52,667 nucleotides of DNA from Acidobacteriota bacterium (GTDB taxonomy: Bacteria > Acidobacteriota > Terriglobia > Acidiferrales > UBA7541): the NCBI GenBank assembly GCA_003223325.1, contig QHYS01000059.1:1-52667 (forward strand). Reading direction: 5' to 3'. This document shows positions 16,190 to 18,677 of this stretch, piece after piece. Numbering within the stretch: position 1 is the first letter of the stretch; every line of letters starts with the position of its first letter. The notes under the pieces were generated by a model. The model saw nothing but the letters and a program-made list of their open reading frames with translations. It had not been told where the DNA came from and searched no databases. The translations under genes and the position numbers were made by a program.

Positions 16190-16552
16190 CTAGCAAGGGG
16201 CCAGGCTGGTTTTGTGGAGGGCGAGGTCGCGCAGCCAGGAGTTGACAGCGGACATTTGCTCGGCGGCCGCGTTTCCAAATACGACGCCCATCCCGAAGAT
16301 GCCCATGCCGTAGCCTGAATGCATGTAGATCACTTTGCCGGGCAATTCACAGCTGCTCATGCCATCGGAGATGCGCAGACGCAATTCCGTACCGATGGGA
16401 ATGGGCTCGAGCGTATCGATATAGCAGCCACGCGAGCTCAATTCGGAAACCTGTGCGGGAACCAACGTACCGTCGCGCAGCGTCGCTTCGGCGTCTGCGA
16501 AAAATGCGAAACGCGGATTGGCGCGCCGAACCGCGAAGGAAGCTTCACTCAT
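16190..16552 (-). CDS. PilZ-domain protein
   Basis: A 120-residue single-domain PilZ protein when started at the ATG at 16552, which has GAGGTGG a few bases upstream; a longer frame begins at 16594. The c-di-GMP-binding arginines are present (RANPR, RxxxR). The second motif reads ELSSRG rather than [D/N]xSxxG, a conservative change. PilZ proteins are c-di-GMP receptors that change activity or partner binding. No partner domain is present. It is one of five PilZ proteins in the window. Confidence 0.82.
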   Translation of the reverse strand: MSEASFAVRRANPRFAFFADAEATLRDGTLVPAQVSELSSRGCYIDTLEPIPIGTELRLRISDGMSSCELPGKVIYMHSGYGMGIFGMGVVFGNAAAEQMSAVNSWLRDLALHKTSLAPC

Positions 16553-16796
16553 ATTCCACCTCGCTCCATGAACTCGTTGCCCGCGATCTTCCATGCTACG
16601 GCATTTTATGGAAGCGCGACGCTAGACGTCCAGGTTTACGCACTCAGGATTGCCGAGACAGGCAACTGGCATAGCGTACAGGCCACTGTGCGGAAACGCG
16701 CAAAGTGATAGCAATTTGCGTTCCAAAATGCCGCGGCCGACGTTCCCTCAAAGCTAGGTGCCTGTCATTATGAGGAGTCCGCCACATGGGCGAATG

Positions 16797-16929: not shown

Positions 16930-18246
16930 TCATTTGTGGCGAATGTCTTCCGGGGCTCGTTGCCGATCGAGTGGCAGGACCTGCAGATGCCATTGCACGG
17001 GAACAGATTCGGGCAAGAAGCAGATCTTGCTGTCGCATGCCTGGTACTCGATCTCTCCTGCAACGGCTAAGGTTTTACCGTCGGCGCCAAGCCCGTTACT
17101 GAAGTCCGCGGCAGAGCTGACCTTGACATCCTGCCGGACGCGGAAGGTTCCTGTGAATACCGGTACCCGCTCCTTGATTGCCGGCAGATAGAGCGTTTTC
17201 GAGGGTGGGAAAATCGCCGGCCGCAAGTCGGTTTCGGGCACGGGATACATCGTCAGCTTGATCGGCTTATAGTCCCGAGTTCCGGGAGCGTACACATGAA
17301 CGTCCGGCGGGAGGTGCACTTCGGCAGTCAAGGTGACGAGCCCTCCGGGAAAGGCGGTACGGTCGGACTGCTCGAGAGTAAGGCGGAAATGCGGAGCTTC
17401 GGTCGTACTCGCTACTTCGTCGCCTAGTTCCGGAAAGAGCTTGGCAATAAGGTTATTGCCGGAGAGCCGCTCGCGGTACTTGGCTTCAAAGAACTTCTCT
17501 TGAATAACGCCGTGGGTGTCTAGAAGGAAATATCCGGGGCGCGCCATTCCCTTGAACTGGCCAGTCGCTTCGGTATTGAGAACGTGATAGGCCCGAATAG
17601 TCTTGGAATCCGGATCGGCCAGCAAAGGAAAGTCGATCTTTCGCCGGTCGGCGAAGTATTTCAGGATTTCTGGGCTGTCGTAACTGATGGCGGCAAGCTT
17701 AATGCCTTGCTTCTCAAATCTGGCTTTGGCGTTCTGCAGCTGGACCAGCTGCCCTTTGCAGTAGGGTCACCAGTCGGCCGAACGGAAAAACAGAAGAACC
17801 GCGCCGTGCGGTCCCTGCAACGTTTCGAGTGTTTGTTGCATGCCAAACTGGTCGCGGGCTGAAAAAGCAGGCGCCTTCTGGCCCACGGCAAGGCCGATGC
17901 CGGTGAGCATTCGGATGGATGTAACGTGAATCGTGTCGCCTTCGAGCGTGCCCTCGACAGTCACGCTGTCTCCCAGGTGACCGGCGGCCTGGTCTTGCGG
18001 ATCGAGGTTGAGCACCAGCCTGAGGGTATCGTCATACAGAGATAGCCTCCCGCCCGGCGCACCCTTGTCGGTGCACTTGGCAGCCTCAGCGAACGCTTCG
18101 TCGACACTACAATTGCTGTTGACGATCACCCCGGACCACGATGCCGAATCCTTCGCGTTTTTCTCCTGGGCCCCTACGAGAGTGGCTGCGCCTAAAATCG
18201 TCAGCGCACACATCAAAGCATATTTCCAGACAGTGCGGGCCGTCAT
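16930..18246 (-). CDS. Selenoprotein redoxin fused to a DsbD-like domain (UGA = Sec160)
   Basis: Two apparent minus-strand ORFs (18348-17767 and 17625-16930) are one gene interrupted by TGA at 17767-17769. Reading through gives FFRSADW-U-PYCKGQL, the peroxiredoxin/thioredoxin-type redox motif with selenocysteine replacing the first cysteine (U160, C163). The frame continues without gaps through AAISYDSPEILKYF and PGYFLLDTHG. From the ATG at 18246 the protein has 438 residues: signal peptide 1-26, a small domain with CSVDEAFAEAAKC, an AhpC/TSA redoxin domain about 116-270, and a DsbD N-terminal-like immunoglobulin domain about 285-420 with YQACDSKICFLP (C404, C409). A periplasmic thiol peroxidase or reductase is likely. 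A SECIS-like hairpin follows the UGA. An automatic annotation would split it. Confidence 0.9.
17736..17769 (-). promoter_or_regulatory. Candidate bacterial SECIS element and recoded UGA
   Basis: The UGA at 17769-17767 is followed 14 nt later by a hairpin: GCAGCU (17752-17747), loop GGUCC (17746-17742), AGCUGC (17741-17736). All six stem pairs are Watson-Crick, and a seventh (G-C) can close the loop. The apical GGUC begins 21 nt after the UGA. In E. coli fdhF the essential GGUC loop begins about 19 nt after its UGA, so loop sequence and distance both match the SelB-binding element. The fold was made by eye. Confidence 0.78.
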
Positions 18247-18344
18247 GGTGATAAATCTAGCACAACTTGAGGCAAGAATTTGCGGTGGGCAAAGATCGCG
18301 TCGGAGCTTGATCCATGCGCTTGACGAACTCACCAGCCAGCGGC

Positions 18345-18677
18345 TCACACCTTCATGGACTCATTGCGAACGATCTCATATCTTTGAATAAGCGCCGCTA
18401 CGCCAACCTGCTGCTCGTCCTTTCCAGGGGTCTTTTCGACCCGGACAACTTTCCCGATGGCGCGTATAAAAACTTCGGTACCGCCAGTTACTTCGGCCGG
18501 CAGGGTCATCGTTAAATCCAGTTCGGAGCCGGCAGTGAAATGATCTGCGATGACGAAGTAAACCCCCCGAGTGGAGATATCGCGGGTCTTTCCATTGCAA
18601 GCGTTTCGTTCGACGGGTACGTGAATGAGGACCGGTAAGGAAAGATCATAACGTCGTGCCGTGCGACGGTCGGTCAT
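18345..18677 (-). CDS. PilZ-domain protein, possible sigma-54 target
   Basis: A 110-residue single-domain PilZ protein. Both c-di-GMP motifs are intact: RTARR (RxxxR) near the N-terminus and DISTRG (DxSxxG). A sigma-54-like promoter lies about 65 bp upstream of the ATG (18743-18758). The neighbouring operon encodes a sigma-54 activator and its kinase, so this receptor may be induced by that system. It ends 99 bp before the start of the selenoprotein on the same strand, and read-through is possible. Confidence 0.83.
   Translation of the reverse strand: MTDRRTARRYDLSLPVLIHVPVERNACNGKTRDISTRGVYFVIADHFTAGSELDLTMTLPAEVTGGTEVFIRAIGKVVRVEKTPGKDEQQVGVAALIQRYEIVRNESMKV

Follow-up and report, generated by a model that had tools for sequence, protein, structure and literature searches.

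Several families of bacterial selenoproteins resemble the gene described here. The listed families include UxxC selenoproteins of both the Prx-like and the redoxin-family type (PMC13188914), and selenoproteins are already known from Acidobacteria (PMC1794560). In the open text of these sources, the Prx-like thiol:disulfide oxidoreductase selenoproteins (PF00578, UxxC or UxxU) combine an AhpC/TSA fold and a UxxC motif, instead of the TxxU of Sec-peroxiredoxins, with a bacterial SECIS element and Cys homologues (PMC1088965, PMC1794560, PMC13188914); with Sec in first place the motif comes to resemble that of thioredoxin, a likeness noted for these proteins (PMC1088965). The gene found in the 52,667-nt stretch of acidobacterial DNA analysed here (the window) has the same features but differs in that its redoxin domain stands between a DUF5818-like region on the N-terminal side and an nDsbD domain on the C-terminal side, a fusion of which no mention was found in the open literature on Prx-like selenoproteins, as far as that text extends. 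A redoxin family selenoprotein (PF08534, UxxC; HEU0032618.1 in PMC13188914) also pairs a redoxin profile with UxxC, a likeness drawn from its description. The type of selenoprotein is thus a known one (Prx-like UxxC), and it is the nDsbD fusion that is unusual. The minus-strand segment from 16930 to 18246 almost certainly holds one gene for one selenoprotein that is presumably decoded as such and probably exported, with the following features.

16930 to 18246, minus strand: selenoprotein gene of 438 codons plus stop, a single frame with an in-frame TGA (from ORFs, homologue alignment and dN/dS)
18169 to 18246, minus strand: N-terminal signal-peptide-like stretch MTARTVWKYALMCALTILGAATLVGA, suggestive of export (from sequence; predicted as a low-confidence helix)
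17896 to 18141, minus strand: DUF5818-like beta domain, residues about 36-117 (profile E 1.3e-5, narrowly short of the cut-off; matched by 8 of 13 members)
17422 to 17895, minus strand: AhpC/TSA-redoxin domain, residues 118-275 (profile E 2.7e-30; Z up to 19.5 to Prx structures)
17767 to 17769, minus strand: TGA codon 160, read as selenocysteine in W-U-P-Y-C (TGA/Cys exclusivity in 79 homologues)
17758 to 17760, minus strand: codon of Cys163, which pairs with Sec160 in the UxxC motif (conserved without exception in a 13-sequence alignment)
17736 to 17752, minus strand: bSECIS-like hairpin GCAGCTG-GTC-CAGCTGC of 17 nt, with 20-21 nt from TGA to apical loop (bacterial SECIS model)
16933 to 17400, minus strand: C-terminal DsbD-alpha (nDsbD)-like domain, residues 283-438 (profile DsbD_N; Z 10.3-11.2 to DsbD-alpha/ScsB)
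17035 to 17037 and 17020 to 17022, minus strand: Cys404 and Cys409 of the C-terminal domain, both invariant in the 13-sequence alignment

The two minus-strand ORFs of the ORF list (17767-18348 and 16930-17625) share one frame, and reading through the TGA at 17767-17769 yields a protein of 438 amino acids that runs from an ATG at 18246 to the genuine stop, a TGA at 16930-16932; residue 160 stands in the context FFRSADW-U-PYCKGQL. A sequence-only reading had joined these ORFs into one redoxin gene around the TGA, and the homologues bear this out: full-length Sec and Cys forms align end to end, and because they align without a break, the segment upstream of the second ORF's listed start is coding as well. 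The same reading had expected ordinary gene callers to report two truncated proteins, as the two listed ORFs illustrate; a standard gene caller (table 11) would cut such genes into two.

A nonsense mutation or sequencing error in an ordinary Cys redoxin gene would likewise leave a lone in-frame stop and two ORFs in a gene caller's list. This explanation retains practically no probability, and is in fact already refuted by the conservation of the TGA across independent assemblies. In a set of 61 related genomes the gene recurs, 15 genomes having it with the present one counted in, with TGA at codon 160 in three congeners and several more distant genomes, and TGC in G019, G029 and G054. A scan of GTDB genomes returned 80 loci, mostly from Acidobacteriota MAGs, one of them without the motif; at codon 160 the remaining 79 carry TGA (39), TGC (29) or TGT (11) and nothing else, although one of the two scan seeds was a pattern with Cys at the site, so that the ratio of Sec to Cys is no census. 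The same codon is therefore TGA in 39 public genomes, congeners included, and TAA or TAG never occurs there. Downstream of the TGA, dN/dS against seven relatives is well below 1 (0.086-0.183) and in most pairs no higher than upstream, which points to purifying selection on the part after the TGA. The earlier argument that a nonsense mutation would hardly strike this exact site has held up, as has its expectation of Cys or Sec at residue 160. A tree built from 69 full-length sequences has 7 switches between Sec and Cys, at least 5 of them forced by well-supported branches. All of this indicates, with very little room for doubt, that the stop-like codon in the middle of the gene encodes selenocysteine.

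A bacterial SECIS element is modelled as a loop of 3-9 nt with G in the first two positions and a stem of 4-16 bp, 16-37 nt from the UGA, at no more than -7.5 kcal/mol, in the available text of PMC13188914. The hairpin after the TGA fits this model with a loop GTC (or GGTCC) starting G-U, a stem of 6-7 bp, a spacing of 20-21 nt and an energy of -11.2 kcal/mol. Sec and Cys forms differ clearly at this site: the loop-initial GT is present in all 41 distinct Sec sequences versus 8 of 39 Cys sequences, the five core pairs are intact in 38/41 versus 6/39, and the median hairpin energy is -10.3 versus -0.75 kcal/mol. A hairpin matching the bacterial SECIS model is thus kept largely only in Sec forms. 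Of the 41 Sec sequences, 27 have G-C and 12 have A-T at pair 20-30, a compensatory change with both sides at synonymous codon positions. It should be noted that kinship among the sequences inflates the permutation value for this covariation; counted on the tree, the pair switches at least 7 times. When the window segment is recoded synonymously, only 0.7% of the trials reach the stability of the hairpin; compared with dinucleotide shuffles, the stability of the hairpin region is not unusual (z 0.45).

The genome also encodes most of the machinery for selenocysteine. The sequence-only reading had proposed a check for selA, selB, selC and selD, of which selA (contig C360), selB (C103) and selD (C260) were each found above curated cut-offs, and selC was not: the assembly has no tRNA-Sec match above cut-off, compared with 57-64 bits in three congeners. 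Contig C156, however, starts inside selC: the first 30 nt of the tRNA are present and agree at every base with those of the intact selC in the congeners G001 and G003, the upstream flank lies alongside, and the region upstream of selC in G003 matches this contig. Since the first base of C156 lies within the tRNA and 30 nt plus flank are kept, selC appears to have been cut by the assembly, with its middle outside it. No selC was found in the window, and none whole on the scanned contigs of selA, selB and selD. An intron-split selC was considered and rejected, as the exact anticodon-arm 13-mer at C50:1467 sits inside an ORF and not in a tRNA.

Copies of the selC 3' end (about 24-50 nt) are scattered through the same genome (C206:9236-9423, C50:203-233, C299:5828-5879, C81:10602-10638, C135:27891-27916 and C370:4771-4794), and one of them is followed by the native downstream flank. 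Such a pattern suggests that mobile elements integrate at selC in this genome; around the three copies with listed ORFs, inspection by eye revealed no integrase. Contig C103 also carries a second selenoprotein candidate at 2973-2975 on the minus strand (locus L052), about 17 kb from selB, where the in-frame TGA of a peroxiredoxin ORF falls in T-S-G-U, a motif of the TxxU type that known Sec-peroxiredoxins have.

The absence of a complete selC from the assembly, together with Cys as the alternative residue at the codon, would also suit a UGA160 read as cysteine or tryptophan by another tRNA, either a suppressor or a selC-like tRNA-Cys. This is very improbable given that selA, selB and selD are present, that both Rfam and ARAGORN call the tRNA of the three congeners, intact in each, tRNA-Sec, that this tRNA has G at the discriminator position, a feature of serine-type tRNAs, and that the gene itself still ends in TGA. 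Selenocysteine insertion at codon 160 can accordingly be regarded as highly probable, and the wider distribution is in line with it. Among 12 genomes with the Sec form, selC is above cut-off in 11 (57-75 bits) and selA in 11, the exceptions being the present genome, where selC is cut at a contig end, and a 73%-complete congener without selA. All three Cys-form genomes (G019, G029, G054) are without selA and without a clear selC; their tRNA scores (46.6-47.0) are borderline, of the size that other tRNAs give, and one barely reaches the cut-off. The relative G007 has its copy of the redoxin gene beside selB-selA-selD-selC. Sec and Cys forms thus follow whether a genome has kept or lost the Sec machinery.

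No neighbouring gene, redox or other, was found to be conserved across the loci, and the plasmid collection gave one weak redoxin match only. Small PilZ-like ORFs, recognised by eye, flank the gene on both sides (window 16190-16594 and 18345-18677), and neither is conserved across other loci. Acidobacteriota also hold a second group of UxxC redoxins, short proteins with FYRGYW-U-P-x-C and an in-frame TGA, in G010, G012, G015, G023, G038, G042 and others (L025-L039).

The domain structure is supported by profiles and by predicted folds. The protein contains a PF00578 domain with a UxxC active site; in the AlphaFold model (pLDDT 84.7) residues 118-275 match the 1-Cys and Bcp/PrxQ peroxiredoxins AhpE and BcpB at Z about 19. 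These differ in having the Thr of TxxC, which Sec replaces here; peroxidase activity of the present protein is putative. The motif U-P-Y-C has Sec at its first position and is not the TxxU of Sec-peroxiredoxins. The TGA had been placed at the peroxidatic Cys or the first Cys of CxxC; the second option stands, while the peroxidatic Cys of the peroxiredoxin fold, which we take to be the second position of TxxC, corresponds to Cys163, with Sec160 at the Thr position. For the C-terminal domain, Pfam DsbD_N matches 13/13 members at E <= 0.01, the present protein at 22.8 bits, below the cut-off of 25. Residues 283-438 modelled alone (pLDDT 89.5) have DsbD-alpha/ScsB N-domains as all top 11 structure matches (Z 10.3-11.2), with unrelated beta-sandwiches at Z 9.5 and below; a profile search gave no PDB sequence match for this domain, and the fold match comes from structure. 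The likeness extends to two invariant cysteines. In DsbD and ScsB the nDsbD domain is part of an electron carrier in the membrane, whereas the present protein joins it to a redoxin.

The N-terminal region raises the question of whether the UGA might be a selenium-dependent switch, with a 159-residue short form (signal and DUF5818 part) that has a role of its own. In relatives, DUF5818-like stretches do also form short ORFs of their own, which match residues 7-120 and nothing else. Cys forms exist without any such stop, however, and in several Sec orthologues the match does not begin before residue 117; with the N-terminal part missing, their short product would hold little. A switch is therefore quite unlikely, and we retain decoding of UGA160 as selenocysteine in one full-length protein.

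Under this interpretation, SelA and SelD with tRNA-Sec would make the Sec-tRNA, which SelB, on the hairpin just after UGA160, would deliver for the UGA to be read as selenocysteine. Profiles, alignment and predicted structures give the product two redox pairs: Sec160-x-x-Cys163 in a redoxin part of AhpC/TSA fold, and Cys404/Cys409 in the DsbD-alpha-like domain joined to it. Judging from sequence and model, the protein most likely works in the periplasm, either as a selenenyl thiol:disulfide oxidoreductase or as a peroxidase, and nDsbD is a putative electron relay. The route of electrons is a more evenly balanced matter: Sec, as the attacking nucleophile, may reduce periplasmic disulfides or peroxides, with resolution through a Sec160-Cys163 selenenylsulfide and re-reduction by the nDsbD domain, itself fed by a DsbD/CcdA-type membrane carrier. 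More tentatively still, the protein could be a self-contained exported selenoenzyme in which the fused nDsbD re-reduces the Sec site within the same chain, linking cytoplasmic reducing power through such a carrier to periplasmic peroxide or disulfide reduction, and could represent a widespread acidobacterial family without an NCBIfam model; in the NCBIfam scan no model accepted the protein. The locus adds a well-supported selenoprotein, probably exported, for soil Acidobacteriota, and its redoxin-nDsbD fusion offers a testable electron route for a selenoenzyme that would act outside the cytoplasm.
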